This document shows, one piece after another, positions 7,973-23,425 of a stretch of DNA of 33,035 bases; position 1 is the stretch's first letter; the number at the start of each line of letters is the position of its first letter. The stretch spans positions 1 through 33,035 of the forward strand of contig NZ_JAEULP010000051.1 of NCBI RefSeq assembly GCF_016792905.1, in the 5' to 3' direction. A program made the translations under genes and the position numbers. Below the pieces are notes generated by a model. The model was not told the DNA's origin. It saw only the letters and a program-made list of their open reading frames with translations, and ran no database searches. This DNA is from Tabrizicola sp. (lineage in GTDB: Bacteria > Pseudomonadota > Alphaproteobacteria > Rhodobacterales > Rhodobacteraceae).

Positions 7973-7975
7973 GGT

Positions 7976-9337
7976 CTATCCCTTCGTCGTCTCGTCAGAG
8001 GCGGGCCGCTGCCAGCCGCCGCCCATCGCCTTGTACAGCGCGATCCATTGCCGGATCAGCGCAAGTTGCTGGGAAATCTGTGAAATCCGGCCAGACTGCA
8101 CCTGCCGCCGCGCCTCTTCCCGGTCCAGCAGCGAGACGCGGCCCGCCTGCCAGTCCGCGTCCACGGCCGCAAAATAGGTATCGTACTCTGCCACCAGCGT
8201 CCCGGCGCTGGCCAGGTTCTTCCGTGCCGCGTTCAGCCGGGTCAGCGCCGCCTCGGCCTCGGCCACCGCCGACAGGACCGCGCTGCGATAGGCCTCCGCC
8301 GCGGTGATCGCATCGGCATTCGCCCCCCTGACCGCCGCCCGCCGCTGCCCGCCATCCAGAATCGGCAGCGACAGCGCCGGGCCGAAACTCCAGCCGTTCG
8401 GCTCGCTCAGCGTCACGCTGCCCCCCAGCGTCAGCGAGGGGTAAAGCTCCGCCTTTGCCACCCCAAGGTCCAACAGCGAGGCCGCGAAACTCAACTCCGC
8501 CTCGGCGATATCCGGCCGCTGGCGCAGCATGTCCGCCGGAACCTCGGCCACCCGGAAGCCTTTCGCCGCGGGCATCCCGCCACCCTTCGCCAGGATCGTG
8601 TCGATCGCGTCCTGCGGCTGGCCGGTCAGCACCGCCAGCGTCTGCGCCAGCACCCGGCAATCCGCCACCTGGCTGTCCAGCGAAATCCGCGCACTGGCCT
8701 GGTTTGCCCGCGCCAGCGCCAGGTCGGCCTCGGCCCGCAGTCCCGCCACGACCAGCCGCTGCGTCCCCTCGATGGTCTGGCCCTGCGAGGCCACCGCATC
8801 GCGGTAGACCTGCTCGATCATCCGGCAGGCGCGGTATTGCGCATAGGTATCCGCCACTTCCGCCGAAAGCGACACATAGGCCCCGGCGTAGGCGTGCTCC
8901 TCGGCCTTTGCCCGCAACCGTTCGGCCTTCGCCGTCTTCGACGCCCGCCCGAACAGGTCCAGCTCCCAACTGGCATCCAGCACCGCCGTCCGTGTCCGGG
9001 TCTGCGCCGTGGTCTCGCTGTCAGCATCCTTGACCGAGGCCTGCCCCGTCACATCCGGCCACAGCCCAGCTGCATCCTGTCCCGCCCGCGCGCGTGCCGC
9101 CATCACCTGCGCCGCCGCCGTGCGCAGTGTCGGGCTGCCCGCCTGCGCCAGCGCCAGAAGCTCGGTCAGCTGCGCATCGCCGATCTTCGACCACCAGTCG
9201 ATCTCCAGCGCGGTCTGCATCTGCGGCACCGACGCCGAAAACCGGGCCGCCGTCGCCTGCCGGGCGTCCGGCGCGACGATGGGAACCGAGCAGCCGGTCA
9301 GAAGGATCAGGCTGGCAACAAGCAGGGGGCGGGTCAT
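7976..9337 (-). CDS. RND efflux outer-membrane lipoprotein (NodT/OprM type)
   Basis: Outer-membrane channel component, 453 aa, of the TolC/OprM/NodT family. The N terminus MTRPLLVASLILLTGC is a lipoprotein signal with lipobox LLTGC, so Cys16 is the predicted lipidated residue. Two outer-membrane-efflux repeats follow, with conserved phrases such as ASWELDLFGRASKTAKAER and RQRPDIAEAELSFAA. The ATG at 9337 is chosen because it yields the signal peptide and has GGGAG upstream; the frame stays open further upstream, but only across the divergent regulator gene. First gene of the efflux operon. Confidence 0.95.
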   Translation of the reverse strand: MTRPLLVASLILLTGCSVPIVAPDARQATAARFSASVPQMQTALEIDWWSKIGDAQLTELLALAQAGSPTLRTAAAQVMAARARAGQDAAGLWPDVTGQASVKDADSETTAQTRTRTAVLDASWELDLFGRASKTAKAERLRAKAEEHAYAGAYVSLSAEVADTYAQYRACRMIEQVYRDAVASQGQTIEGTQRLVVAGLRAEADLALARANQASARISLDSQVADCRVLAQTLAVLTGQPQDAIDTILAKGGGMPAAKGFRVAEVPADMLRQRPDIAEAELSFAASLLDLGVAKAELYPSLTLGGSVTLSEPNGWSFGPALSLPILDGGQRRAAVRGANADAITAAEAYRSAVLSAVAEAEAALTRLNAARKNLASAGTLVAEYDTYFAAVDADWQAGRVSLLDREEARRQVQSGRISQISQQLALIRQWIALYKAMGGGWQRPASDETTKG

Positions 9338-9475
9338 TCCGTCAGGTCTCCCGTGTTGCCGCCTCAGATGCCAGAAGCCAGCGTAAAGGAGTGTCAAGAT
9401 TCGGCAAAGAAAGGAAAATACCGGCCCATCCGCCGACGCCCGCGCTATGGTGCGCCCAACGAAAGGGCAAACTGC
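9338..9475. promoter_or_regulatory. Divergent promoter region, efflux operon / two-component genes
   Basis: A 138-bp gap between the efflux operon (minus strand) and the response regulator (plus strand). It is the only place for both promoters and for binding of an OmpR-type regulator. An AT-richer stretch (about 9385-9422) stands out from the surroundings. No clear direct repeat or consensus -35/-10 pair could be assigned by eye. Confidence 0.5.
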
Positions 9476-10150
9476 ATGGCCACCGTCCTCCTGATCGACG
9501 ACGACGCCGAACTGACCCGGCTGGTCGGCGACTACCTGACGCGCGAGGGCTTCACCGTCGCGACAGCCCCGGATGGCAGCAAGGCGCTTGGCCGGATCAT
9601 CGAGACCCGCGCCGACATCGTGGTGCTCGACATCATGATGCCGGGGCCGGACGGGCTGGAAGTCCTGCGCCGCATCCGCGCCGAGACCGCCGTGCCGGTC
9701 CTGATGCTGACCGCCCGCGGCGACGAGGAGGACCGAATCACCGGCCTCGACCTCGGCGCCGACGACTACCTCGCCAAGCCCTGCTCTCCACGTGAGCTGG
9801 CCTCGCGCCTCCGCGCCATCCTGCGCCGTGCCCCATCTGAAGGTGCCACCCCTGCCCAGACCGGGCCCCTGCACCTCGACACCGTCCGCCGCACCGCCAT
9901 CTGGCGCGGAGAACCCCTGCGCCTGACCGGGGCCGAGTTCAACATCCTGGAAGTCCTCGCCGCACAGGCGGGCCGACCCGTCTCGCGCGCCGACCTGTCG
10001 CTGCAAGGCCTCGGTCGCCCCCTCGCCCCCTTCGACCGCGCCATCGACGTGCATCTCTCGACGATCCGGCAGAAACTTGGCGCCTATGACGACGGCCGCA
10101 GTCCGATCCTGAACCTGCGCGGCATCGGCTATCAGTTCGTCGAGGAATAG
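9476..10150 (+). CDS. OmpR/CpxR-type response regulator
   Basis: Cytoplasmic DNA-binding response regulator, 224 aa. The receiver domain (about 3-115) has the acidic pocket D8/D9, the phosphoacceptor D52 (VVLDIMMPGPDG), T79 and K101 in order. A C-terminal winged helix (about 130-222) ends with RAIDVHLSTIRQKLG and SPILNLRGIGYQFV, typical of the OmpR/PhoB subfamily. The ATG at 9476 directly gives the receiver start MATVLLIDDD. The sensor kinase follows after 5 bp. Divergent placement next to the RND operon suggests it controls that pump; this is inference from position. Confidence 0.95.
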   Translation: MATVLLIDDDAELTRLVGDYLTREGFTVATAPDGSKALGRIIETRADIVVLDIMMPGPDGLEVLRRIRAETAVPVLMLTARGDEEDRITGLDLGADDYLAKPCSPRELASRLRAILRRAPSEGATPAQTGPLHLDTVRRTAIWRGEPLRLTGAEFNILEVLAAQAGRPVSRADLSLQGLGRPLAPFDRAIDVHLSTIRQKLGAYDDGRSPILNLRGIGYQFVEE

Positions 10151-10155
10151 ACCCG

Positions 10156-11424
10156 ATGACCCTGCGCGTCTTCATCGTGATCTGGGGCGCGCTGGTGCTG
10201 ACGATCCTCCTGTTCGGCACGCTGGTCGCCGCCTGGGACCCTGCCCCGCCGAAGGGCGCCATGCTGGTCGGCGAACGCGCGATGATCGAACGCCAGCTTG
10301 CCCTTGTCGCCGACCGGGACGGCAGCGCAGCGGCCCTCGCGCACTGGTCGGCCATCGCCCCGGCCTATCCCGGCATCATCCTGGCCGAAGACCCCGCCTG
10401 CGCCGATGATCCGCCGGTCCGCGATGCGGCCGGAACCTGTCTGAAAGTCTCGCTCACCGACACGCCAAGCCGCTTCCTCGAAGGCCTGCGCATCCTGCTC
10501 CTGCCCCTTCTGGTGGGCTTCGCGGTCAGCGCCGCCGCCGCCCTTCTCCTCTCGCGTCACCTGACCCGGCCGATCCGCACCGTCAACGCCGCCCTGCAAC
10601 GCCTGGCCTCGGGCGATCTGGACAGCCGTATCGGCAGCGCGCTCGACGGCTCCAGCGGCGAGCTTGCCCGACTGGGCGGCGCTTTCGACCATGCCGCCGA
10701 CCGGCTGCAAAAGCTTGCCGAAGGCCGCCGCCGCCTGTTCAACGACCTTTCGCATGAAATCCGCTCGCCCCTTGCCCGCCTGCGCGCCGCCGTCGGCCTC
10801 CTGGAGGTCAGCCCCGACCGCCTGGCCGAGATGCAGCGCCAGATCGAGACCGACATCCTGCGGCTCGACAACCTGGTGCGCGACATCCTGACCCTCGCCC
10901 GCTTCGACAGCACCGAAGCGCATCCCGCCCACGTCCGGCTGGATCTGGTCGATATTCTGGAGCCGATCCTCTCGGATGCGAATTTCGAGGGGCAGCCGCG
11001 CGGGGTGGTCGTCAATTACGACGGGCCGGAGAACCTCGAACTCGCGGGCACGGCCGAGCTTCTGCACCGGGCCCTGGAGAACGTGATCCGCAACGCGCTG
11101 TCCCATTCGCCGGACGGTGGCCACGTCAGCGTTCAGGCTACCACGGGAAGCGAGGGGCTCCGGATCGACATCTCGGACGAGGGGCCCGGCGTGCCTGATG
11201 CGGACAAACCAAGGATTCTTGAGCCATTCTTCCGGCTCTCCGACGTGGCCGCGACCGGCGGCACCGGCCTTGGTCTGGCCATCGCCGCGCGAGCGATAGC
11301 TGCCCATGGCGGAACGATCGGCCTGTTCGACAACGTTCCGCGCGGCCTTCGCGTACGGGTCATCCTTCCCGCCCCCGCAGGATCGCTGCCCGTCCGCCGG
11401 ACCGACGATCCGACCACAGCCTGA
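10156..11424 (+). CDS. Two-component sensor histidine kinase (CpxA-like layout)
   Basis: Inner-membrane sensor kinase, 422 aa, partner of the preceding regulator. TM1 is residues 4-27, a short periplasmic domain spans about 28-110, TM2 is about 112-133, then a HAMP linker (about 133-185), the dimerisation/phosphoacceptor helix with H200 (NDLSHEIRSPLARL) and an HATPase domain with an N box (ENVIRNALSHSP), G1 (DISDEGPGVPD) and G2 (GGTGLGLAIAARA). The periplasmic part is small and contains two cysteines (C82, C95) in an acidic setting, a possible redox or metal-sensing feature. Signal unknown. Confidence 0.95.
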   Translation: MTLRVFIVIWGALVLTILLFGTLVAAWDPAPPKGAMLVGERAMIERQLALVADRDGSAAALAHWSAIAPAYPGIILAEDPACADDPPVRDAAGTCLKVSLTDTPSRFLEGLRILLLPLLVGFAVSAAAALLLSRHLTRPIRTVNAALQRLASGDLDSRIGSALDGSSGELARLGGAFDHAADRLQKLAEGRRRLFNDLSHEIRSPLARLRAAVGLLEVSPDRLAEMQRQIETDILRLDNLVRDILTLARFDSTEAHPAHVRLDLVDILEPILSDANFEGQPRGVVVNYDGPENLELAGTAELLHRALENVIRNALSHSPDGGHVSVQATTGSEGLRIDISDEGPGVPDADKPRILEPFFRLSDVAATGGTGLGLAIAARAIAAHGGTIGLFDNVPRGLRVRVILPAPAGSLPVRRTDDPTTA

Positions 11425-12260: not shown

Positions 12261-13691
12261 TCAGGCACCCCAGCCGACGATCCCCTTCACTTCGCAGAAG
12301 TCGTGGATGCCCCAGTCGGCATATTCCCGACCATTGCCGGATTGCTTGTAGCCCCCGAACGGGGCCGAGGTGTCCCAGTCCGGGTAGTTCAGGTTTACCG
12401 TCCCCGCGCGCAGCCGCCGGGCGACGGGCTGGGCATCGGGGACCGGACCCGCGATATAGGCGGCAAGGCCGTAGACCGTGTCATTGGCCTGGGCGATGGC
12501 GTCCTCCAGGTCGTCATAGGGCTGGATCGCCAGGACCGGGCCGAAGATCTCCTCGCGCGAGATGGTCATCGCGTTGACCACGTCGCCAAAGACCGTCGGG
12601 CGCACGAACCAGCCCCGGTTCAGCCCCGCCGGGCGGCCCGTGCCGCCGGTCACAAGTGTCGCACCCTCGTCGATCCCGGCCTGGATCAGGCGCTGGACCT
12701 TGTCGAACTGCATCTTCGAAACCAGCGGACCCATGGTGACGCTGGTATCGCGCGGGTCGCCCACCTTGATCGTCTCGGCCGCTTCCTTCGCCACCGCCAA
12801 CGCCTGCGCCTGCTTGTCGCGGGGCACCAGCATCCGGGTCGGCGCATCGCAGGACTGGCCGGTGTTCGACATCACCGCCGTGACACCGGCGGCGACAGCC
12901 GCGGCCAGATCGGCATTGGGCAGGATGATATTCGGCGACTTGCCGCCCAACTCCTGCGCCACGCGCTTCACCGTCGGCGCGGCGGCGGCAGCGATTGCCG
13001 TGCCCGCGCGCGTCGATCCGGTAAAGGATACCATGTCGACCTCGGGATGCGAGGACATGCGGGCGCCAACCTCCGGCCCCAGGCCGTGGACAAGGTTGAA
13101 GACACCCTTCGGCACCCCCGCATCATGGCAGACCTGGGCGAAAAGCGTGCCGGACAGCGGCGCGATCTCGGACGGTTTCAGCACCATGGTGCAGCCCGCG
13201 ATCAGGGCGGGCGCCACCTTGCAGGCGATCTGGTTCATCGGCCAGTTCCACGGCGTGATCAGCGCGCAGACGCCGATCCCTTCATGGACGATGCGGGTGG
13301 TTCCCCGCATGTATTCCCAGTCCATCTCCTTGGCGGCCTTGATCGTGGCCTCCATATGGACCTGGCCAGCCCAGGCCTGCGCGCCGCGCGCCCATTCGAT
13401 GGGGGCGCCCATCTCGGTGGACATGACCTGCGCGAAATCCTCGTAGCGTTCGTTGTAGACATCAAGGATGCGCTGGATCAGGGCGATGCGCTCCTTGACC
13501 GGGGTGACGGTCCAGGCGTCGAACGCGGCGCGGGCGGCCAGGATGGCGCGGTCGGCATCCTCGGTGTTGCCCAGCGCGACCTCGCAGACGATCTCTTCGG
13601 TCGCCGGGTTTTCCACGCCCATCCTCGCCTTGGAAAGCGGCTCGACCCACGACCCGTCGATGTAGAACTTCGTCATGTTTTCCGGGATCAT
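12261..13691 (-). CDS. NAD(P)-dependent aldehyde dehydrogenase family protein
   Basis: Cytoplasmic aldehyde dehydrogenase, 476 aa, oxidising an aldehyde to the acid. The family signature is complete: N149 in TPWNWP, the E247 motif QELGGKSPN, catalytic C281 in NTGQSCDAPTR, and a C-terminal EEIFGPVLAI segment. The ATG at 13691 has AGGAG seven bases upstream. A second in-frame ATG at 13676 would also fit the family, but the first has the better ribosome site. The gene stands alone between the glycosylase and mod genes, and the substrate cannot be assigned. A role oxidising alpha-ketoglutarate semialdehyde for the sugar locus in this window is possible but not supported by position. Confidence 0.93.
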   Translation of the reverse strand: MIPENMTKFYIDGSWVEPLSKARMGVENPATEEIVCEVALGNTEDADRAILAARAAFDAWTVTPVKERIALIQRILDVYNERYEDFAQVMSTEMGAPIEWARGAQAWAGQVHMEATIKAAKEMDWEYMRGTTRIVHEGIGVCALITPWNWPMNQIACKVAPALIAGCTMVLKPSEIAPLSGTLFAQVCHDAGVPKGVFNLVHGLGPEVGARMSSHPEVDMVSFTGSTRAGTAIAAAAAPTVKRVAQELGGKSPNIILPNADLAAAVAAGVTAVMSNTGQSCDAPTRMLVPRDKQAQALAVAKEAAETIKVGDPRDTSVTMGPLVSKMQFDKVQRLIQAGIDEGATLVTGGTGRPAGLNRGWFVRPTVFGDVVNAMTISREEIFGPVLAIQPYDDLEDAIAQANDTVYGLAAYIAGPVPDAQPVARRLRAGTVNLNYPDWDTSAPFGGYKQSGNGREYADWGIHDFCEVKGIVGWGA

Positions 13692-13868
13692 GGCTGTCTC
13701 CTGACAATTCCGGGCGATGTAACTCTGGAAACCTATCGCAAGCCGAAGGGGTGCTGCTAGATCAGTTTCGTAATGCCGGACTCTGTTTACGACATCGCCG
13801 ACCGGGCTTCTGTACTGAAAGCCGGGTACCGTGCCGTGACATGCCGCCGCACGGATGCCCTGTCGCCA

Positions 13869-14960
13869 TCACCATGGCGCACGTCCGACGTTCTCCTGCG
13901 CGACAGAGACCGCCTTCAGCACGGCATACACCTCGCGCCCCGGTTTCAGGTCCAGCGCGGCCACGGATCGCCTCGTCAGCCGCGCGAGCATCACCTCGTC
14001 GCCGACCCTCAGCTGGACCATCGCACCGGGGCCATCGCCAAGGTGGATCGTCCCGACCCTCGCCTGCAGGATGTTGAGCGCCGAAATGCCGGTCGGCCTC
14101 TCGGTGGCAACCATCACGTCCTGGGCAAGGATTCGCAGGCGGAGCACGGCCCCGTCCGGCACGTCCACACGCGGCAGGAACACCGGCCCGCCGCCGGTTT
14201 CCAGCCGGGTCAGACCGTCCCCTTCCTGTGCCGTGACGCGGGCTGTGATCATCGCACCGGCCTCCCGCAGTCCAAGGGTTGGCGCAATCGCAGGGTCGGA
14301 CAGGACCTCTGCCGCCGGGCCCGCGGTAACGACCCGCCCGGCCTCCATCAGGACAACCGTCGTCGCCAGACGCGCCACCTCGGCAACCGAATGGCTGACG
14401 TACAGGATCGGCAGGTTCCATTCGTCCCGCAACCGCTCCAGATAGGGCAGGATTTCCGCCTTCCGCGCCTCGTCCAGCGCAGCAAGCGGCTCGTCCATCA
14501 GCAGGATCCGCGGATTGGACAGGATCGCCCGGCCAATCGCCACCCGCTGCTTCTCTCCCCCCGAAAGGGCGCCCGGCCGCCGGTCCAGCAAGGCGCCGAT
14601 GCCCAGAAGGTCGACGATGCGGGACAGATCGGCACCCTGACCCTTCCCGGAGAACCAGCGGCCGTAAAGCAGGTTCTGCCGCACGGTCAGGTGCGGAAAC
14701 AGCCGCCCGTCCTGGAAGACATAGCCCATCCCGCGGCGGTGGGGCGGCAGCGAGATCCCGGCGTCAGTGTCCAGAAGCGTCAGGCCGTCCAGCGTGATCC
14801 GCCCCCGGTCGGGCCGAAGCAGCCCCGCCACGGCATTGACCACGGTCGATTTTCCCGACCCGGATCGACCGAACAGCGCGGTCACGCCCGACGGAGCCTC
14901 GAACACCGCATCCAGCGCGAAACTGGCAAAAGCATGCTGCAGGGCCACCGACAGCGTCAT
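13869..14960 (-). CDS. modC: Molybdate ABC transporter ATP-binding protein
   Basis: ATPase of the molybdate importer, 363 aa. Walker A GRSGSGKST (31-39), Q-loop VFQDGRLFPHLTV, signature LSGGEKQR (132-139), Walker B LLMDEP (153-158) and the H-loop YVSHSVAE are all present. The C-terminal region (about 285-350, including ISALNILQARVG and GREVYAVLKAVSV) is a TOBE/molybdate-binding domain, the mark that separates ModC from other ABC ATPases. The start overlaps the modB stop by 4 bp (ATGA). Last gene of the modE-A-B-C series; no T-tailed terminator was found after it. Confidence 0.95.
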   Translation of the reverse strand: MTLSVALQHAFASFALDAVFEAPSGVTALFGRSGSGKSTVVNAVAGLLRPDRGRITLDGLTLLDTDAGISLPPHRRGMGYVFQDGRLFPHLTVRQNLLYGRWFSGKGQGADLSRIVDLLGIGALLDRRPGALSGGEKQRVAIGRAILSNPRILLMDEPLAALDEARKAEILPYLERLRDEWNLPILYVSHSVAEVARLATTVVLMEAGRVVTAGPAAEVLSDPAIAPTLGLREAGAMITARVTAQEGDGLTRLETGGGPVFLPRVDVPDGAVLRLRILAQDVMVATERPTGISALNILQARVGTIHLGDGPGAMVQLRVGDEVMLARLTRRSVAALDLKPGREVYAVLKAVSVAQENVGRAPW

Positions 14961-15655
14961 TGCCCGGAAATCCTGCGCGCCACGGCCCGGCTGACCCATT
15001 CCGACAACAAGAGCGCCGTCATCGCCACCGCAATCGCCACCAGCACCAGCCGGAACGCCTGCGCATCGCCCCCCGGCACCTGCAGGAAGGCATAGATCGC
15101 CGAGGGCAGCGTCTGGGTCTGGCCGGGGATGTTCGACACGAAGGTGATGGTCGCACCGAACTCGCCCATCGCCTTGGCGAAGGCGAGGATCGCCCCCGCA
15201 ATGATCCCGGGCAGGATCAGCGGCAGCGTCACCGTCGCAAAGACCCACAGCCGCGGCGCCCCCAGCGTCGAGGCCGCCTGTTCCAGCTTCGGGTCAACCG
15301 ATTCGATGGCCAGCCTTATCGCCCGGACCATCAGCGGAAAGGCCATCACCGCCGCCGCCAGCGCCGCCCCGGTCCAGCGAAACGCCAGCACGATCCCGAA
15401 CCACTGGTCCAGGAACTGCCCGACATAGCCCTTCCGGCCGAAAGTGATCAGCAGGAGATAGCCGGTGACGACCGGCGGCAGGATCAGCGGCAGATGCACC
15501 AGCCCGTTCAGGACCTGCCGACCCCGGAAGTCCCAGCGCGCCAGCGCGTAGGCGACGAGGATGCCCAGGGGCAGGCTGAGCACCGTCGCCCAGACGGATA
15601 CGCGCAGCGACAGGGCCACTGCGCGCCATTCCTCCGCTGAAAGCGCCTCGAACAT
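14957..15655 (-). CDS. modB: Molybdate ABC transporter permease
   Basis: Inner-membrane permease, 232 aa, with five to six hydrophobic segments and the characteristic ModB phrases PLILPPVVTGYLLL, GAALAAAVMAFPLMVRAIRLA, and the cytoplasmic EAA-type loop EQAASTLGAPRLWVF...TLPLILPGIIAGA. Lies 21 bp after modA and overlaps modC by 4 bp, an arrangement that indicates one transcript. Confidence 0.95.
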   Translation of the reverse strand: MFEALSAEEWRAVALSLRVSVWATVLSLPLGILVAYALARWDFRGRQVLNGLVHLPLILPPVVTGYLLLITFGRKGYVGQFLDQWFGIVLAFRWTGAALAAAVMAFPLMVRAIRLAIESVDPKLEQAASTLGAPRLWVFATVTLPLILPGIIAGAILAFAKAMGEFGATITFVSNIPGQTQTLPSAIYAFLQVPGGDAQAFRLVLVAIAVAMTALLLSEWVSRAVARRISGQ

Positions 15656-15676
15656 GCATCCCGTTTCCGGGCTGCC

Positions 15677-16435
15677 TCAGTTCAGGATGGCAAAGCCCTG
15701 TGCGGTGAACTTCGCATCTGCGGCGTCCGACGACAATGCCTCGAAGAAGGCCTTGTCCGCCGCATCCGCCGCCCCGGTCAGCAGCGCCGCCGGGTAGACG
15801 ATCGGCTTGTGAGTGTCGTCCGGGAAGGTGCCGACGACGCTCACGTTCTCGTCCGCCACCGCGTCCGAGGCGTAGACGATCCCATAGGGCGCCTCGCCCG
15901 TGGAAACCAGCGCCAGAGCCGCGCGCACGTTTTCCGACTGCGCGACCGACCCCTCGACCGCCGACCAGACGCCCAGCTTCTCCAGCGATTCCTTGCCGTA
16001 TTGTCCGGCGGGAACCGAATCGACCATGGCCATCGACAGCTTGCCGTCGCCCAGGAGCGCGGCCAGATCGAAGTTCGGCCCGATCTCGACCGGGGCCACG
16101 TCCTTGCCATGTGCGACCAGCACCAGCGTGTTGCCCAGAAGGTCCTCGCGCGTGTCCGGCACGACCAGACCGGCCTTCTCGACCTCGTCCATCCAGTTCA
16201 CGGCGGCCGAGATGAAGATGTCGGCAGGCGCGCCTTCGATGATCTGCTTGGCGAGCGCATTCGACCCGGCATAGCTGATCGTGACCGTGTTTCCGGTCGC
16301 AGCCTGGAAATCCGCTGCGACGGCATCAAGCGCGTCCTTCAGCGAAGCGGCCGCGAAGACGACGACCTCTTCCGCCAGGGCGGGGGTGGCAAGCGATGCG
16401 GCAAGAATCGTAGCAAAGGCAAGGCGGCGAGTCAT
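15677..16435 (-). CDS. modA: Molybdate-binding periplasmic protein
   Basis: Substrate-binding protein of the molybdate importer, 252 aa, exported to the periplasm by an N-terminal signal peptide (MTRRLAFATILAASLATPALA, cut near residue 21). Ligand-site motifs are FAAASLKDALDAV and YAGSNALAKQI near the N terminus, then PADIFISAAVNWMD and a C-terminal GIVYASDA segment. The ATG at 16435 has GGAGGA five bases upstream. The frame is open further upstream, but that extension merely repeats the end of modE and lacks a ribosome site. Two Mo-box-like sites lie just upstream. Confidence 0.96.
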   Translation of the reverse strand: MTRRLAFATILAASLATPALAEEVVVFAAASLKDALDAVAADFQAATGNTVTISYAGSNALAKQIIEGAPADIFISAAVNWMDEVEKAGLVVPDTREDLLGNTLVLVAHGKDVAPVEIGPNFDLAALLGDGKLSMAMVDSVPAGQYGKESLEKLGVWSAVEGSVAQSENVRAALALVSTGEAPYGIVYASDAVADENVSVVGTFPDDTHKPIVYPAALLTGAADAADKAFFEALSSDAADAKFTAQGFAILN

Positions 16436-16448
16436 GGAATCCTCCAGT

Positions 16449-16472
16449 CGATATTTCCCGCCAGACATATCA
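16449..16472 (-). promoter_or_regulatory. Mo-box-like site proximal to modA
   Basis: A 24-bp imperfect dyad with left half CGATAT (16449-16454) and right half ATATCA (16467-16472), lying 13 bases before the modA start codon. Length and half-sites resemble the ModE operator known from enterobacterial modA. A position this close to the ribosome site would suit repression of modABC by molybdate-loaded ModE. Matches the neighbouring site at 16497 at 20 of 24 positions. Confidence 0.7.
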
Positions 16473-16496
16473 ATCAGGTGGCCCCGGCGTGGCAAG

Positions 16497-16520
16497 CGTT
16501 ATTTTCCGCCAGACATTTCG
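16497..16520 (-). promoter_or_regulatory. Mo-box-like site overlapping the modE stop
   Basis: Second 24-bp element, starting CGTTAT and ending CATTTCG, spaced 48 bp from the modA-proximal box. It includes the stop codon and last codons of modE. It shares the core TCCGCCAGACAT with the 16449 site apart from one base, so the two are tandem near-copies. Confidence 0.55.
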
Positions 16521-16864
16521 CTTTTCGCCTTGCCGCGCAGCAAATGTTCCAAAGCGGCAATCGAAGTCGCTGCCGCCTCTTCCGACCGGGCCACGACATC
16601 ACGGTACAGCCGAAGGACCTCGGCTCCGTGGTCGGTCAACCGCGCTCCACCGCCACCCTGGCCACCGCGCGCACTGGAAATCAGCGGCTGCGCGAAGGCC
16701 GCATTCAGTTCCTCGGCCAGCATCCAGGCGCGCTTGTAGCTCATCTTCATCTGGCGCCCGGCGGCAGCGATCGAGCCCGTCTCGCGGATGCGCTCAAGCA
16801 GTTCTGCCTTGCCCGGACCCATCATCGCCCCGTCGAACAGGATGCGCAGCTTCAACGCCGTCAT
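16499..16864 (-). CDS. modE: ModE-type winged-helix regulator, DNA-binding domain only
   Basis: A 121-residue cytoplasmic regulator matching the N-terminal DNA-binding domain of ModE: LRILFDGAMMGPGKAELLERI, the helix-turn-helix GSIAAAGRQMKMSYKRAW, and wing residues GGQGGGGARLTDHG. Full-length ModE (about 260 aa) continues with two molybdate-binding Mop/TOBE domains; here the protein stops shortly after the dimerisation helix. Adjacent modA and the Mo-boxes support the assignment. The ATG at 16864 has GAGGAG upstream, and the box at 16891 lies the same distance from it as the moeA box lies from moeA. It is unclear how this short form senses molybdate. Confidence 0.88.
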   Translation of the reverse strand: MTALKLRILFDGAMMGPGKAELLERIRETGSIAAAGRQMKMSYKRAWMLAEELNAAFAQPLISSARGGQGGGGARLTDHGAEVLRLYRDVVARSEEAAATSIAALEHLLRGKAKSEMSGGK

Positions 16865-16890
16865 GGCCCTCGCTCCTCTTCCGCCTGAGT

Positions 16891-16914
16891 CGATATTTCC
16901 TGAAATGCCTATCG
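16891..16914 (-). promoter_or_regulatory. Mo-box-like site before modE
   Basis: A 24-bp dyad with perfect outer half-sites CGATA (16891-16895) and TATCG (16910-16914), with the internal TTTCC shared by the other boxes. It begins 27 bases upstream of the modE start codon, the same distance as the moeA box from moeA, which suggests autoregulation of modE. Confidence 0.7.
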
Positions 16915-17030
16915 CTGACAAGGCCCGCGATGCGACGGACGACCGGCGCGGCCCGACATTTCCCCCACCGATGGGGCGGCACATCGCCGCGTCCGGTCGG
17001 CCCGGCACCAAAGTCCTGTTGGTGAACCGG

Positions 17031-17225
17031 ATGAATCGATATATTCCTTGGAACATGTCCCGGGAATTCGCCTTGAACACGGCTGCACCACCTGAACCCC
17101 GTGGTCTGATCCAGACGGACGACCAGCGCTTTGCGGTTTCCACGACATTCGCGCGGGACGGTCAGGCCGTTGCCCGGGTGACGGGGCGGCGCGACAGCGG
17201 TTCACGCAGGCCGAGCCGCCAGTAG
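17031..17225 (+). CDS. Possible small protein, 64 aa, unknown
   Basis: An ATG-started frame of 64 codons (begins MNRYIPWNMSREFALNTAAP) that ends 12 bp before the AcoR-like gene, on the same strand. It has a plausible but not strong G/C bias at third positions and no recognised family or clear ribosome site. Its first codons coincide with a Mo-box-like sequence (17037-17060), which argues that the stretch is regulatory rather than coding. The 374-bp gap between modE and the AcoR-like gene otherwise holds only the two boxes. Confidence 0.2.
   Translation: MNRYIPWNMSREFALNTAAPPEPRGLIQTDDQRFAVSTTFARDGQAVARVTGRRDSGSRRPSRQ
17037..17060 (+). promoter_or_regulatory. Weaker Mo-box-like site in the modE / AcoR-like intergenic region
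   Basis: Left half CGATATATTCC closely follows the other boxes; the right half ACATGTCC matches the ACATATCG-like pattern at six of eight positions. It is 178 bp before the AcoR-like gene and 173 bp before modE, so it could serve either. The least certain of the five sites. Confidence 0.4.
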
Positions 17226-17237
17226 GGAGCGTCGGAC

Positions 17238-18179
17238 ATGCACACTACGGCCAGCCAGCACGTCACCCGCATCGAAGCGGCCATCCGGTCGGGCCAGGCC
17301 GCACGATCCTCGGTTGCCGCATCCTGGGCACGGTCGGCGACGCTCTACCATCTCGACCCGGCTGCCGCGCGGCTGGAAAACCGGCTGACCGCGTCGGAAC
17401 TCGCCGTCGCCTGCGAGCGATCCGGGACGCTCCTGCCGACGGCTGCCCCGCATCTTGACCGGCTGTTCCATAGCGTCGGCGGGCTTGGCGCCTGCATCGT
17501 GCTGGCCGATGTCGAAGGCGTGGCGCTCGACCGCCGCGGCAATGTCGGCGACGATCGGGATTTCGCCTCCGCAGGCCTCTGGACCGGCACCGCCTGGTCC
17601 GAGGCGCGGGCCGGGACCAACGGTATCGGCACCTGCCTGGCCGAGGGGCGGGCCGTCACCATCCACCGCGACCAGCATTTCCTGGCGCGCAACATCGGGC
17701 TCAGCTGTTCCTCGGCCCCGGTCTTCGGCCCCGAGGGCGAGCTGATGGCGGTGATCGACGTCTCGACCGCCCGGTCCGACCTGCCGGAAGCCGTCAGCGG
17801 CCTGATCGGTGCGACCGTGACCGAGGCAGCCCGAAGGGTCGAGGCTGACCTTTTCAGCCAGCGCTTCCCCCGCGCCCGGCTGGTGCTGGTGCCCGGAACC
17901 GAACGCGGAATCGGCGCCACACTTGCGGTCGACGCGAACGATCTGGTGATCGGCGCCACTCGGGCGGCCCGCCTGCACCTGAACCTGTCGGGCAATCTCG
18001 CCGCCTCGCCCCGGCCGCTGGCAGATCTGTTGGGCCAGGATGCCGGGGACGGTTTCGAAGATGCCGAGCGCGCCGTCATCGCGCGGGCCTTGGCACGCTC
18101 CGGCGGCAACATCTCGGCTGCCGCGCGGGCGCTTGGCCTCAGCCGCGCGACGCTGCACCGCAAGCTCGACCGCCGCTGA
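17238..18179 (+). CDS. GAF / Fis-type HTH regulator (AcoR-like, lacking AAA+)
   Basis: Transcription regulator, 313 aa. A GAF sensory domain (about 70-200) has the AcoR-like core AGTNGIGTCLAEGRAVTIHR and HFLARNIGLSCSSAPVFGP. A C-terminal Fis-type helix-turn-helix follows (about 275-313, SGGNISAAARALGLSRATLH). The AAA+ sigma-54-activation domain that full AcoR proteins carry in between (GAFTGA motif, Walker boxes) is absent, so it cannot drive sigma-54 promoters itself; such short forms are known in alphaproteobacteria. It lies 145 bp before an acetaldehyde-type dehydrogenase gene, with an 11-bp inverted repeat in the gap, and probably controls it in response to an aldehyde, alcohol or acetoin-like compound. 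Confidence 0.9.
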   Translation: MHTTASQHVTRIEAAIRSGQAARSSVAASWARSATLYHLDPAAARLENRLTASELAVACERSGTLLPTAAPHLDRLFHSVGGLGACIVLADVEGVALDRRGNVGDDRDFASAGLWTGTAWSEARAGTNGIGTCLAEGRAVTIHRDQHFLARNIGLSCSSAPVFGPEGELMAVIDVSTARSDLPEAVSGLIGATVTEAARRVEADLFSQRFPRARLVLVPGTERGIGATLAVDANDLVIGATRAARLHLNLSGNLAASPRPLADLLGQDAGDGFEDAERAVIARALARSGGNISAAARALGLSRATLHRKLDRR

Positions 18180-18192
18180 TCGCAGTTTGTCT

Positions 18193-18224
18193 GCCGACCT
18201 GTCTCAATCCTGCGACAGGTCGGC
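18193..18224 (+). promoter_or_regulatory. Inverted repeat, candidate operator for the aldehyde dehydrogenase gene
   Basis: Perfect 11-bp arms GCCGACCTGTC (18193-18203) and GACAGGTCGGC (18214-18224) around a 10-base spacer. The inner part reads TGTC-N-CA-N4-TG-N-GACA, a symmetrical site suited to a dimeric Fis-type HTH. It is 13 bp after the regulator stop and 100 bp before the dehydrogenase start. No T-tract follows, so a terminator is less likely than an operator. No -24/-12 sigma-54 promoter was found between it and the gene. Confidence 0.6.
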
Positions 18225-18324
18225 TCGGTGATCCACCCCGCCCGGGATGACCGACTCGCTCCTTCGCCGCAGCATTGCCCCAGGGTCGCCTGGAGGAGGC
18301 GGCTGAACCGAGGAGGAGAACAGA

Positions 18325-19842
18325 ATGACCAAGATGGATCCCAAATCCCTGACCGCTGCGCCGTTCCAGAAGCGCTATGACAACTTCATCGGCGGCGAAT
18401 GGGTCGCGCCGAAATCCGGCCGCTACATGGAAAACATCTCGCCCGTCACCGGCCTGGTGGTCTGCGAAGTGGCCCGTTCGAACGCGCAGGACATCGAACT
18501 CGCGCTTGACGCCGCGCACAAGGCCCGCAAGCGCTGGGGCGAAACCAGCGTCACCGAACGCTCGAACATCCTTCTGAAGATCGCCCAGCGCATCGAGGAC
18601 AACCTCGAAGCCATCGCCATCGCCGAGACCTGGGACAACGGCAAGCCGCTCCGCGAGACGATGGCGGCGGACATTCCCCTGACCATCGACCACTTCCGCT
18701 ATTTCGCGGGCGCGATCCGGGCGCAGGAAGGCTCGATCGGCCAGATCGACAACGACACCGTGGCCTACCATTTCCACGAACCCCTCGGCGTCGTCGGCCA
18801 GATCATCCCGTGGAACTTCCCGATCCTGATGGCGGCCTGGAAACTGGCCCCGGCGCTGGCCGCGGGCAACTGCGTGGTGTTGAAACCGGCGGAACAGACC
18901 CCGGCCTCGATCATGTACCTGATGCAGTTCATCGCCGACCTGCTGCCGCCGGGCGTCCTCAACATCGTCAACGGCATCGGCGAGGAAGCGGGCGCTGCGC
19001 TCTCCTCCTCCAAGCGCATCGCCAAGATCGCCTTCACCGGCTCGACCCCGGTCGGCAAGATGATCATGAAGGCCGCCGCCGACAACCTGACCAACATCAC
19101 GCTGGAACTGGGCGGCAAGTCGCCGAACCTCTTCTTCGCCGACGTGATGAACGAGGATGACGCCTTCCTCGACAAGGCGATGGAAGGTTTCGCCATGTTC
19201 GCGCTGAACCAGGGCGAGGTCTGCACCTGCCCGTCGCGCGCTCTGGTGCAGGAATCGATCTACGACCGCTTCATGGAACGCGCCGTCAAGCGGGTCGAAG
19301 CCATCGTCGCGGGCGACCCGCGCGCCACGGCAACCATGATCGGCGCCCAGGCCAGCCAGGAGCAGTACGACAAGATCTCGTCCTATCTGGAGATCGGCCG
19401 CAAGGAAGGCGCCAAGGTGCTGACCGGCGGCGCGGTGAACCACTTCGGCGGCGATCTGTCCAAGGGCTTCTACATCCAGCCCACCATCTTCGAAGGCACC
19501 AACAAGATGCGGGTGTTCCAGGAAGAAATCTTCGGGCCGGTCGTCTCGGTCACGACCTTCAAGACGCTTGAGGATGCGCTGGAAATCGCCAACGACACCG
19601 TCTTCGGCCTTGGTGCAGGCGTCTGGAGCCGCGACACCAACACCGCCTACCGCGCCGGCCGCGGCATCGAGGCGGGCCGGGTCTGGACCAACTGCTACCA
19701 CGCCTATCCGGCAGGGGCTGCCTTCGGCGGCTACAAGCAGTCCGGCATCGGGCGCGAGACGCACAAGATGATGCTCGACCACTACCAGGAGACGAAGAAC
19801 CTCCTGGTCAGCTATTCGCCCAACAAGCTCGGCTTCTTCTAG
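18325..19842 (+). CDS. Acetaldehyde-type aldehyde dehydrogenase (ExaC/AcoD family)
   Basis: NAD-dependent aldehyde dehydrogenase, 505 aa, closest in style to ExaC/AcoD enzymes that oxidise acetaldehyde to acetate. Key residues are N164 (IPWNFP), E261 (LELGGKSPN) and catalytic C300 in the subfamily-specific [11 protein letters not shown]. The C terminus [19 protein letters not shown] is also typical. The start at 18325 has a strong AGGAGGAG site. Follows the AcoR-like regulator and is closed by a good terminator, so it forms a single-gene unit. Probable role is alcohol or acetoin catabolism or aldehyde detoxification. Confidence 0.95.
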
Positions 19843-19860
19843 GCCCTGATCCCGCACAGG

Positions 19861-19886
19861 AAGGGGGCGCCCGTCGCCCCCTTTTT
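19861..19886 (+). terminator. Rho-independent terminator
   Basis: GGGGGCG (19863-19869) pairs with CGCCCCC (19875-19881) around a 5-base loop, extended by AA/TT, and is followed by a run of Ts (19882-19886). It stands 18 bp after the aldehyde dehydrogenase stop and shortly beyond the end of moeA on the other strand. The A-run on the left is short, so it mainly serves the plus strand. Confidence 0.9.
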
Positions 19887-19897
19887 CCGGCGCCACC

Positions 19898-21160
19898 TCA
19901 GACGGGCGGTCGCCCGACACGCCGGGGCACGCCGTCCCGGATCGGCACCACCTCGACGATCCCGCCCTCCGCGATCTCCGTCATGTCGGGGGTCAGCACG
20001 ATCAGGATCTCGGCCCGCGCCAGCGCCGCGACATTGGCCGAGCCCTGCTGCACCAGCGGCATGGCGCAACTCCTTCCCTCCGGCCCGGTCTCGATCCGCC
20101 CGAGCAGCACATCCGTGCGGCCCGCAGGCTTGGCATGGGCTCGGCCCAGCGGCAGCCGCCACGCCGGTGAAAGCGGCAGCGGCAGGTCCAGAAGCCGCGC
20201 CAGGATCATCCGCCCGATCAGGATGAAATCCACCAGCGCCGCCACCGGGTTTCCCGGCAGCACCAGCACCGGGCAATCGTCGATGTCGCCGAAACCAACC
20301 GGCTTGCCCGGCCGCATCTGCAACCGCCAGAACTCGACGGCCCCGCGTCGCGCCACCAGGCCCGACATATGGTCGGCAAGCCCGACCGAGGCCCCGCCGG
20401 TACTGACGATCAGGTCATGCCCAGGCGCCGCTTCGGTCAGGCGCCGCAGCAGATGCTCCGGTTCATCCGCGCAAATCCCCAGGTCGGTGACATCGGCCCC
20501 GCAGCCCGCCAGCAGCCGCGCCAGAAGCGGACGATTCGTGTCGCGAATCTGCCCGGGGCCCAGCTCGCGCTCCGGCGCGGCAAGTTCGTCGCCGGTCGAG
20601 ATCAGCGCCACCTTTGGCGCCCTGGAAACCTGCACCGTCGCCACATCCAGCGCCGCCAGCAGCGCCAGTTCCCCGGGTCCAAGCCGGTGCCCTGCCGACA
20701 GGATCAGCTCATCGCGGCGGACGTCCTCGCCCACCGGCCGGATATGGCGCCGGACGCCCGGCTTGCGGCATAACGTGACCTCGGTCCCGCGCAGCTCCGC
20801 GTCTTCCTGCATCACCACGCAATCCGCACCCGGTGGCATCGCAGCCCCGGTGAAGATGCGCGCGGCCTCGCCCGCGGCAACCGGCTGCCCCAGGCGTCCG
20901 GCCATGATCACCTGCGACACATGCAGGCTGACCGCCCTGCCTTCCAGCGCGTCGGCGGACCGCAGCGCAAATCCGTCCATTGCCGCGCAGTCAAACCGCG
21001 GCAGGCTGCCCGGGGCAACGACGTCCGACCGCAGCCAGCGCCCGCACGCGGCCTCCGCCGTCACGCGCTCTGCGCCCACCCTGCTGAACGGATAGGTCTC
21101 AAGGAACGCCAGCGCGTCATCCAGACGAAAACGTCCCACCGCCCCGGAAGATTTGGCCAT
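19898..21160 (-). CDS. moeA: Molybdopterin molybdotransferase MoeA
   Basis: Cytoplasmic enzyme, 420 aa, that inserts molybdate into adenylylated molybdopterin, the last common step of molybdenum cofactor synthesis. Domain order is as in the family: N-terminal region (RFDCAAMDGFALRSAD), the IFTGAAMPPGADCVVMQED segment, the MoCF-binding domain (VALISTGDEL, GQIRDTNRPLL, DLIVSTGGASVG, VLPGNPVA) and a C-terminal beta domain. The frame stays open upstream of the ATG at 21160. That start is preferred because the MoeA-like sequence begins there and a Mo-box lies 27 bases upstream, the same spacing as at modE. Its presence beyond the mod cluster joins uptake and cofactor assembly. Confidence 0.95.
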   Translation of the reverse strand: MAKSSGAVGRFRLDDALAFLETYPFSRVGAERVTAEAACGRWLRSDVVAPGSLPRFDCAAMDGFALRSADALEGRAVSLHVSQVIMAGRLGQPVAAGEAARIFTGAAMPPGADCVVMQEDAELRGTEVTLCRKPGVRRHIRPVGEDVRRDELILSAGHRLGPGELALLAALDVATVQVSRAPKVALISTGDELAAPERELGPGQIRDTNRPLLARLLAGCGADVTDLGICADEPEHLLRRLTEAAPGHDLIVSTGGASVGLADHMSGLVARRGAVEFWRLQMRPGKPVGFGDIDDCPVLVLPGNPVAALVDFILIGRMILARLLDLPLPLSPAWRLPLGRAHAKPAGRTDVLLGRIETGPEGRSCAMPLVQQGSANVAALARAEILIVLTPDMTEIAEGGIVEVVPIRDGVPRRVGRPPV

Positions 21161-21186
21161 CACCTGCCCGATCCATGCCTTGCTCC

Positions 21187-21210
21187 CGATATTTTTCGCT
21201 GAATATAACG
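21187..21210 (-). promoter_or_regulatory. Mo-box-like site before moeA
   Basis: A 24-bp dyad with CGATAT (21187-21192) and ATATAACG (21203-21210). Read on the minus strand it begins CGTTATATTC, very like the enterobacterial ModE operator. It is in the 86-bp gap between moeA and the gene for the dehydrogenase small subunit. This is the best match to the classic Mo-box among the five. Confidence 0.75.
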
Positions 21211-21248
21211 CTGACATCAAGTCGGCCGCGCAGTAGCGCACCGGGGCG

Positions 21249-21662
21249 CTAGACTCCTCGATAACAGGGGCCCCGGGCCATGACCGGTTCGACCGCCGCC
21301 ATGATCTCGTCGTAGTCGACCTCGGTCGTCAGCGCCTCGAACCCGGGATAGCCCAGCCGCCGCATCACCTCCGGACTGGCCAGATAGGCCCCCGCGATGA
21401 AGCGCCCCAGAAGCGCCCGGTCCTCCACCGACAGTGCCCGCACCGGCGCCAGCGGATCGGCGGGCGGTTCGGCGGGAAAGCGCGCGACCACGGCCAGGAA
21501 CCCGGGCGCGAGGTCTGCCCGGGTCTTCAGCACCATCGGCAGAAGCCGGTCCTGCACCCCCACCGCAGGGGCCGAGGGGAAGCCAAGTCCCGGATCGCCC
21601 GGAATCATCGCGTCGCACAGCCAGTCAAGCCGGGCCGCCACATCCTGATGACTGATCGCCAT
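21249..21662 (-). CDS. Gluconate 2-dehydrogenase subunit 3-like protein
   Basis: A 137-residue protein resembling the small (subunit 3) partner of FAD-dependent gluconate/sugar dehydrogenases: early DAMIPGDPGLGFPSAPA, then ALLGRFIAGAYLASPEVMRRLGYPG (split by variable positions) and a short C terminus. Subunit 3 proteins usually carry a Tat signal that exports the flavoprotein complex; none is visible here, since the protein starts MAISHQDVAARLDWLCD. It starts 10 bp after the GMC dehydrogenase stop, has a GAGGAGGGGAG ribosome site, and is presumably its partner. Assignment rests on pairing and motif style. Confidence 0.75.
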   Translation of the reverse strand: MAISHQDVAARLDWLCDAMIPGDPGLGFPSAPAVGVQDRLLPMVLKTRADLAPGFLAVVARFPAEPPADPLAPVRALSVEDRALLGRFIAGAYLASPEVMRRLGYPGFEALTTEVDYDEIMAAVEPVMARGPCYRGV

Positions 21663-21672
21663 GCTCCCCTCC

Positions 21673-23292
21673 TCAGAACGCCTGCCCATGGCGGTTCCGC
21701 ACGATGGCCTCCGCATTGCGCAAGGCCAGCGCCGCGACCGTCGCCGTCGGGTTCACCGCGCCCGAGGTCGGCATCACGCTGCCGTCGATGACGAACAGGT
21801 TCGGCACGTCATGCGCCCGGCCATAGCCATCGACGACCGATGTCTCCGGGTCCTCGCCCATCCGCGCCGTGCCCAGGATATGCCAGCCGGTCTCCTTCAA
21901 GGGCGGCGCGGCCATCGTCTCGTAGGCGCCCGCCTCGCGCATCGAGATCATCGCCTTCTCCTGCATGAACTTCTGCAAGCGATACATGCCCGCGTCATAG
22001 CGGTAGGTGACCTTGGGCGCGGGAATGCCGTCGTCGTCCTTCAGCTCCGGGTCCAGCGTCACCCGGTTGTGCTCGAAGGGCAGGTCCTCGGCGATGATGT
22101 CCCAGATCGCCGACCGGCCGAAGCGCTTGTAGACCGTCTTGTGGAACGCCTCGCCCCATTCCGTCTCGGCCCCCCAGGGGTGCGCGCCGATGGCCCCGAG
22201 GGGCGATCCCGTCGGCATCAGCATCAGCTTCGCGCCGCGATGGAAGCCCCGGTCCGCGCCGGTTTCGGCGAATTCCAGGCTATAAGCCCGCTGCGCTGCG
22301 GTGCCCTGCCAGCTGTCCATCACCTCGTCGAACAGGCCCGTGACAGTAGTAAACGGGTGCATCATCAGATTCTTGCCCACCAGACCCGAACTGTTCGCCA
22401 GCCCGGCCGGGGATCGCGATGTGGCCGAGTTAAGCAGCAGCCGCGGCGTCCCGATCCCGTTCGCGCAGATCACCACGATCCGGCTTTTCTGGCTATGCGT
22501 CCCGCCGGTGTCGCGGTCGACATAGGTGACGCCCGTCGCCAGCCCCTTGGCGCTGGTCTCGACCCGGATCACCCGCGCCCGCTGCACCAGCCTGACGCCC
22601 AGCTTGATGTTCAGCGGCCAATGCGTCCGGTCGACCGAGGCCTTGGCCCCGTCGAAACAGGCCGGGGCCGAACAGGCGCCGCGCCTCACGCAAGGGTTCA
22701 GTCCGGCATGTTTCACCGTGGCGATGGCATTGGTGCCCGGCCAGATATGCCAGCCCAGCCGCTCGTGCGCCTTGAACAGCCGCCGCTCGATCGCCCCCAG
22801 GGGCAGCGGCGGCAGCGGCGGGTCGAAATGCGGATAGGCCGGGTCGCCGCCGACCCCCGACACCGCCATCTGCAACTCCACCCGGTCGTAGTAGGGCGCG
22901 AGGTCGTCATAGCTCAGCGGCCAGTCGGCCCCCACGCCGTCCAGCGTCCTGACCTTGAAGTTCGACGGCTGGAAGCGGTTCCAGGCCCCGGCATAGATCA
23001 CCGTCCCGCCGCCGACCCCGTTCCACATCAGCGGGTTGATGTCGGATTCCGTCGCGTTGATCGGATAGTCGGACGGCATCCTGCGCCGGTTCGGATTAAA
23101 CCCGAAGCCCATGTCCTTGCGCAGCTCGAACCCCGGCTCGTCGAACCTGATCGAGGCATAGTCGGGGTATTCACCCTGCTCCAGACAGACCACCGACATG
23201 CCTGCCGTGGCCAGCACCTGCGCCGTGATCGCCCCGCTCGGCCCCGCGCCAATGATCGTCACGTCGCTGTCTTTGCCGCCGCCCGCGTTCAT
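21673..23292 (-). CDS. GMC-family FAD-dependent dehydrogenase/oxidoreductase
   Basis: Flavoprotein of the glucose-methanol-choline family, 539 aa from the chosen start. The ADP-binding motif DVTIIGAGPSGAITAQVL lies near the N terminus, followed by NPLMWNGVGGGTVIYAG and a C-terminal block WHILGTARMGEDP ... FVIDGSVMPTSGAVNPTAT that carries the active-site His/Asn region. A cysteine-rich patch CVRRGACSAPAC is near the middle. ATG 23292 (GAGAGG upstream) is preferred; a TTG at 23406 would add 38 residues of non-conserved leader. With the subunit-3-like partner it probably oxidises a sugar, polyol or sugar acid. No cytochrome subunit is adjacent. Confidence 0.9.
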   Translation of the reverse strand: MNAGGGKDSDVTIIGAGPSGAITAQVLATAGMSVVCLEQGEYPDYASIRFDEPGFELRKDMGFGFNPNRRRMPSDYPINATESDINPLMWNGVGGGTVIYAGAWNRFQPSNFKVRTLDGVGADWPLSYDDLAPYYDRVELQMAVSGVGGDPAYPHFDPPLPPLPLGAIERRLFKAHERLGWHIWPGTNAIATVKHAGLNPCVRRGACSAPACFDGAKASVDRTHWPLNIKLGVRLVQRARVIRVETSAKGLATGVTYVDRDTGGTHSQKSRIVVICANGIGTPRLLLNSATSRSPAGLANSSGLVGKNLMMHPFTTVTGLFDEVMDSWQGTAAQRAYSLEFAETGADRGFHRGAKLMLMPTGSPLGAIGAHPWGAETEWGEAFHKTVYKRFGRSAIWDIIAEDLPFEHNRVTLDPELKDDDGIPAPKVTYRYDAGMYRLQKFMQEKAMISMREAGAYETMAAPPLKETGWHILGTARMGEDPETSVVDGYGRAHDVPNLFVIDGSVMPTSGAVNPTATVAALALRNAEAIVRNRHGQAF

Positions 23293-23425
23293 GCCTCTCG
23301 CCCCGAAGGCCTGCGCCTCGACATAGTTTAGCGCTACACGTCGCGCTTGCGCAAGATGGCTTTCGCCGGTCAGGGCTGTTTTCCTGACTGGATCGAAGCT
23401 GGGCAAATTCTTAAGATGTAGTAAA

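Follow-up and report, generated by a model that had tools for sequence, protein, structure and literature searches.

In Agrobacterium tumefaciens, a short ModE protein, ModE(S), reportedly represses modABC through two boxes, said to lie before modA, and follows the molybdenum cofactor (Moco) rather than molybdate. Full-length Escherichia coli ModE carries two molybdate-binding domains, and its operator consensus is ATCGNTATATA-N6-TATATANCGAT in the excerpts of PMC545781; the same excerpts describe Desulfovibrio, in which the ModE DNA-binding domain occurs alone and sites of the form CGGTCACG-N14-CGTGACCG are predicted at mod operons. In Rhodobacter capsulatus, MopA and MopB act at Mo-boxes that repress mopA-modABC when molybdate is present (PMC6925177, in excerpt). 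Here we describe a locus of this kind in a 33,035-nucleotide stretch of Tabrizicola sp. (contig NZ_JAEULP010000051.1), the whole of which we call the window. It carries, in order, modE-modA-modB-modC-aldh1 on the minus strand, a gene for a GAF-Fis regulator and an exaC-type gene on the plus strand, and then moeA on the minus strand, together with five 24-bp elements. We consider it probable, as an explanation of the whole arrangement, that these elements are Mo-boxes of a ModE(S) that would exert a Moco-dependent shut-off of modABC and of the genes with single boxes. The system is of a known kind, a ModE(S)-type Mo-box regulon, and its layout variant is an operator that lies over the modE stop codon.

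An initial annotation of the window had placed 24-mers at 16449, 16497, 16891, 17037 and 21187, and all five are found at those coordinates; the 27-base spacing it gave for two of them is also exact (modE, A of the ATG at 16864 and box start at 16891; moeA, 21160 and 21187). The half-sites it described as shared are real as elements, but their right halves are looser at 16497 (ATTTCG), 17037 (ATGTCC) and 16891 (CTATCG). Scored against an outside consensus of the E. coli ModE type, CGNTATATA-N6-TATATANCG (16 scored letters, from the excerpts of PMC545781), the element at 21187 matches 13/16 and the other four 11/16, which ranks these five at the top of all 33,012 window positions; 0.275 sites of at least 11/16 are expected from a first-order Markov model (40 simulated windows) as compared to the five observed. 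On a matrix built from 70 boxes in 42 loci of relatives, with the window excluded, the five score between 18.0 and 33.8 bits (Table 1), and the sixth-best window position reaches 7.0 bits. Among 39.9 million positions simulated with a second-order Markov model, one reached 18 bits and none reached 21 (0.0008 sites of at least 18 bits expected per window), and no position in 47 other fetched loci (195,368 positions) reached 15 bits. The dyad that recurs in Rhodobacterales loci has the form CGATATGT-N8-ACATATCG. A stricter model, R1, clearly matches 16449, 16497, 21187 and 17037; at 16891 it finds a half-site of 4.1 bits (window E of 4.9), which does not stand out from the unrelated positions 8529 and 14709. 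As predicted ModE-type operators, the elements are supported at modABC, very likely at the extra moeA, and probable at modE.

The regulator itself (P0001) is a protein of 121 residues with one winged-helix domain, for which HTH_1 is the sole Pfam match; Pfam and profile searches found no molbindin/TOBE (molybdate-binding) domain in it, and its match to TIGR00637 (E of 6e-23, 80.7 bits) falls below the family cut-off of 98.5. The closest solved structure is 2IJL, a putative ModE of A. tumefaciens (sequence E of 4e-26, fold E of 2.6e-9), and E. coli ModE (DNA-binding part; 1B9M, 1O7L) comes next by sequence and by fold alike. Its AlphaFold2 model is a single domain with a mean predicted local distance difference test (pLDDT) score of 89, falling below 50 at residues 119–121. 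By its predicted domain content the regulator is thus a ModE(S), a short ModE with a DNA-binding domain only. A canonical full-length ModE does not fit these predictions: P0001 lacks the C-terminal molybdate-binding domains, and the window's own genome, which is 92.9% complete, yielded no second modE (two further matches, both at E above 0.1). A TOBE search of this genome at E of 0.001 or less returned three matches; one is modC, the other two lie in open frames of 351 and 375 codons, and none is a short stand-alone Mop. Because P0001 has no molybdate-binding domain and neither a second modE nor a short Mop was found, direct molybdate sensing by this protein seems unlikely. The missing domain and the reported behavior of Agrobacterium ModE(S) together make Moco status, rather than molybdate, the more likely signal.

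The two elements before modA have counterparts in many relatives. The 81 modE loci examined (80 from relatives and the window) leave 65 adjacent loci once a duplicate and the 15 whose modE is not followed by modA are removed; two boxes lie between modE and modA in 43 of these, one in 18 and none in four. The proximal box is present in 57/65 and the distal box in 46/65, and paired boxes are spaced 44–48 bp apart. In three of the four zero-box loci a box lies close by but outside the interval scanned: before modE in L020 and L175, and further down in L197. Of 32 loci added after completion of the matrix, modA lies downstream in 21, and between modE and modA a box scoring 12 bits or more is present in 19 of them (18/20 once a duplicate is removed). 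Sinorhizobium meliloti, in which a short modE stands beside modC, likewise has two consensus sites before modA, 42 bp apart (13/16 and 12/16), scoring 16.4 and 8.1 bits on the Rhodobacterales matrix. By this comparison, the window's two modA elements form a conserved pair of predicted operators. A TTG occurs 19–23 bp upstream of the proximal box in all 57 loci that have one, and is extended to TTGAC in 6 of 14 loci without a distal box; the distal box ends immediately before this TTG, and the proximal box covers the expected −10 position. This constant placement of the TTG fits a modA promoter with its −35 between the boxes and its −10 within the proximal box. Control by a Moco riboswitch was set aside, since nothing in 13000–22000 matched an Rfam family at its gathering score.

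The distal box lies across the modE stop codon, so that its DNA encodes the C-terminal tail of ModE. Of the 46 loci with a distal box, 42 encode the tail motif [DE]-x-[SPAF]-x-x-[KR], as compared to 2 of 19 without the box. Codon choice in these 42 loci departs from that of the rest of the gene: the last lysine is AAA in 40/40 (the other two tails end in arginine) as compared to 15/117 lysines elsewhere in the same genes, and tail aspartates are GAT in 37 cases and GAC in one, as compared to 47 and 94 elsewhere. The stop codon is TAA in 40/42 loci with box and motif and in 2/19 without the box; p-values for these contrasts overstate independence, the loci being related. In one genome (G065, locus L027) modE stops earlier, and a full box stands directly behind its stop codon. 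Because codon and stop choice are reversed and the G065 box sits behind an earlier stop, the constraint appears to act mainly on the DNA, with the protein tail as a by-product of the operator. Among the literature titles and abstract openings listed, none mentions a Mo-box lying across the stop codon of modE, or one at a gene for an aldehyde dehydrogenase, a search that does not establish absence from print.

Upstream of modE, the three closest relatives retain CGATNNGC...GGAAATATCG 25–27 bp before the gene within otherwise diverged DNA, with scores of 8–9 bits where scored, and a CTTG ahead of the box is invariant in seven aligned loci. Conservation of this site, which the initial annotation had taken as a test of its proposal, thus extends to three close relatives but not to most other loci examined, at which no clear modE box was found. 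Autoregulation of modE is likely, on this pattern, in a subclade of close relatives.

The element before moeA is one of three R1 places at E of 10 or less in the window's own genome, where 150 of 576 candidates were scored. The moeA behind it is 29–44% identical to the matches listed from relatives, and the same genome has a second moeA at C14:39037-40146; the window's gene is, by these comparisons, an extra copy and not the orthologue of the genus moeA. No Mo-box was found upstream of the second moeA or at 29 loci of relatives (29–41% identical, with no clear orthologue among them). Among the loci compared, the proposed conservation of the site upstream of moeA, and with it a conserved moeA arm of the regulon, found no support, although clear orthologues were lacking. 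Because the gene is extra and non-orthologous and no other genome examined yielded its box, the moeA arm is best described as a predicted species-level addition.

Plasmids offer parallels. The nearest plasmid protein to the window's moeA product, 51% identical, is from Shinella; there, boxes are found after moeA and further downstream, and none precedes it. These Mo-boxes, on a plasmid of Shinella sp. WSC3-e (L082:7256-7279, 27.4 bits; 9799-9822, 19.7 bits), belong to a cluster with moeA/glp, an ABC transporter labelled iron, which may instead be for an oxyanion, and a small molybdopterin-binding protein. On pMRAD01 of Methylobacterium radiotolerans (L207), a short modE, formate dehydrogenase (fdh), mobB and glp/moeA stand together, with consensus sites before mobB (L207:14820-14843, 12/16) and after glp (16814-16837, 13/16) that score below 8 bits on the Rhodobacterales matrix. 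Sites near moeA in ModE(S) clusters therefore have some parallel elsewhere.

An aldehyde dehydrogenase gene, aldh1, follows modABC in the window's genome and in two others (G000, G005 and G017), and in 3/3 of these a box lies 23–25 bp upstream of it (7.0, 26.0 and 23.0 bits, respectively); the window's own copy, at 13715, is weak by itself and is not listed by R1. Orthologues of aldh1 located elsewhere have no such box (0/14), and their upstream DNA looks alike, a pattern that suggests capture of a metabolic gene by a cofactor regulon. Split hits in G018 and G025, like paralogues with identities up to 63%, were outside this comparison. At two of the loci elsewhere, a hydroxyisobutyrate-dehydrogenase-like gene follows aldh1 (L107 of G015 and L108 of G013), and at the former an mttB-family gene precedes it. 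On the plus strand only, a TTG precedes the 17037 box by 18 bp, toward the GAF-Fis/exaC unit; the box is missing in two relatives with a GAF-Fis/exaC neighbor (L005 and L103). A 56-codon frame without family match (17055-17225, plus strand) starts within this box. Since aldh1 boxes occur in 3/3 linked genomes and the 17037 box faces the exaC unit, the label "unrelated" that had been given to the aldehyde dehydrogenase unit is too strong; a link of these genes to the ModE regulon is possible. A tentative extension, which we would put at low probability, is that in this small clade ModE(S) serves as a cofactor-status switch for aldehyde oxidation: the molybdenum-free aldh1 and exaC would be released under Moco shortage and replace Moco-dependent oxidases, much as molybdenum-free nitrogenase replaces Mo-nitrogenase, and the main operator, inside the end of the repressor gene, would evolve together with the tail. 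The own genome has four MoCoBD_1 matches, candidate Moco-dependent oxidases.

A pattern scan of the own genome, limited to sites with at most two mismatches, returned 32 sites. Six of these score at least 18 bits, namely the five window boxes and one at G000:C69:60784-60807 (L099:2785-2808; 25.8 bits), which precedes a DUF2478 gene by 29 bp; the next, C50:11777 (11.1 bits), was set aside as lying inside a pfkB-like frame. The DUF2478 box was rejected as a genus-wide feature, being present at 1/21 loci (the own genome) and missing at the 20 others. Seven of 21 DUF2478 matches in the genus follow a moeA match at a distance of no more than 40 bp. In a non-exhaustive R1 search of the genus, which scored 150 candidates in each of 32 genomes, the matches listed at E of 1 or less all adjoin modE, except the window's moeA box and the aldh1 box in G005. 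The R1 searches missed known sites: 17037 in the own-genome search, and any match in 4/32 genomes in the genus search.

Together, these data suggest a model in which plentiful Moco would bring ModE(S) dimers onto both modA boxes, flanking the −35 and covering the −10, and so switch modABC off. On single boxes near start codons, a ModE(S) dimer would lower modE and the extra moeA; for aldh1 and the DUF2478 gene the same is probable in this clade. A drop in Moco would release all ModE(S) targets and permit more molybdate uptake and cofactor insertion; that the operator spells the last residues of its own repressor would be a by-product of the layout. Beyond moeA, the predicted species-level additions to the regulon perhaps include aldh1, exaC and DUF2478. 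The initial proposal of one molybdate regulon over both loci is retained as to ModE-type sites at modABC, modE and moeA, but not as to its signal or its reach, given a regulator without a molybdate domain and a moeA arm that is not conserved. Several points count against the model. The element at 16891 is degenerate, and the 21187 and 17037 boxes have no conserved counterpart in the genomes examined. A scan of 16300–17400 found no consensus sigma-70 promoter, so the putative −35 and −10 of modA rest on conservation, and the loci share kinship, so their counts are not independent. The pattern list of 32 sites is little above the 23 of a control, and the matrix alone separates sites. Finally, Moco sensing draws on a reported Agrobacterium precedent.

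Other explanations account for parts of this evidence. Function could be confined to the two modA boxes, perhaps with the modE site, and the elements at moeA, 17037 and aldh1 would then be AT-rich promoter sequence that resembles a box by chance. In favor of this, conservation is lacking for the moeA and 17037 boxes, and the one at 13715 scores 7.0 bits and escapes R1. We regard this as unlikely, since no simulated position reached 21 bits and none in the other fetched loci 15, the moeA site stands before a Moco gene, and aldh1 boxes follow linkage to modABC (3/3 versus 0/14). A still less likely possibility is that the same boxes are read by a ModE(S) that responds to molybdate through a partner, for example a Mop that stands alone or ModC with its TOBE domain; the adjacent modC does carry such a domain, but none of the three own-genome TOBE matches is a short stand-alone Mop, although at 92.9% completeness the assembly may lack one. 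Least probable of all, and to our minds very improbable, is that the conserved tail (D-M/I-S/P-x-x-K) is a functional peptide from which the DNA likeness follows. The motif's presence in 42/46 loci with a distal box would agree with this, but the reversed choice of the final lysine and stop codons, the full box that G065 keeps behind its earlier stop, the absence of the tail motif from 17/19 loci without a distal box, and the low model confidence of the tail all favor an operator that dictates the protein end. We prefer Mo-boxes of a ModE(S) that would follow Moco.

Features of the window are collected in Table 1. Upstream of moeA and in the same direction, 21249-23406 holds a GMC oxidoreductase gene and a 139-codon frame without family match. 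In the open reading frame list, frames at 3744-11424 resemble a resistance-nodulation-division (RND) efflux pump with membrane-fusion and outer-membrane proteins, near a response regulator and a sensor kinase, and positions 1-370 form a low-complexity contig start rich in G/C runs, possibly an assembly edge.

Table 1. Predicted operators and genes of the Tabrizicola window
Feature	Coordinates	Strand	Remarks
Proximal Mo-box, modA promoter	16449..16472	-	13 bp before modA ATG; 33.8 bits
Distal Mo-box, modA promoter	16497..16520	-	spans modE stop codon 16499-16501; 29.4 bits
Putative -35 core of modA promoter, conserved TTG	16493..16495	-	between boxes; inferred
Degenerate Mo-box before modE	16891..16914	-	18.0 bits; R1 half-site
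Mo-box without counterpart in relatives	17037..17060	.	24.5 bits; R1 10.7 bits
Mo-box before moeA	21187..21210	-	31.5 bits; 0 mismatches to genome-scan pattern
Weak Mo-box candidate, 23 bp before aldh1	13715..13738	-	7.0 bits; not listed by R1
modE(S), gene for P0001	16499..16864	-	121 residues, DNA-binding domain alone; A of ATG at 16864
modA	15677..16435	-	TIGR01256 match
modB	14957..15655	-	TIGR02141, PRK09421 matches
modC, carries TOBE domain	13869..14960	-	
aldh1, aldehyde dehydrogenase gene behind modABC	12261..13691	-	PF00171
GAF-Fis regulator gene	17238..18179	+	PF01590, PF02954
exaC-type aldehyde dehydrogenase gene	18325..19842	+	NF050026, 934 bits (cut-off 900)
moeA, extra non-orthologous copy	19898..21160	-	MoeA_N, MoCF_biosynth, MoeA_C; A of ATG at 21160

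The locus offers a compact system for asking how a ModE protein that lacks a sensing domain can respond to molybdenum status, and a clear case of a DNA operator dictating a protein C-terminus, visible in reversed codon and stop-codon choice. It shares the dyad logic and the DNA-binding fold (1B9M, 1O7L) of E. coli ModE/modABC but, unlike full-length E. coli ModE, P0001 has no molybdate-binding domains. Rhodobacter capsulatus has two ModE-like regulators, which also act on anfA and morAB, as compared to the one short protein here. Single-domain ModE of Desulfovibrio has the same domain content as P0001, whereas its predicted site differs from the Mo-boxes of the window. The locus resembles ModE(S)/modABC of A. 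tumefaciens in having a single-domain ModE of the 2IJL kind and, as reported for that species, a pair of boxes ahead of modA; it differs from that system in that modE directly precedes modA, with the distal operator overlapping the modE stop codon, and in its additional single boxes at moeA, aldh1, DUF2478 and 17037.

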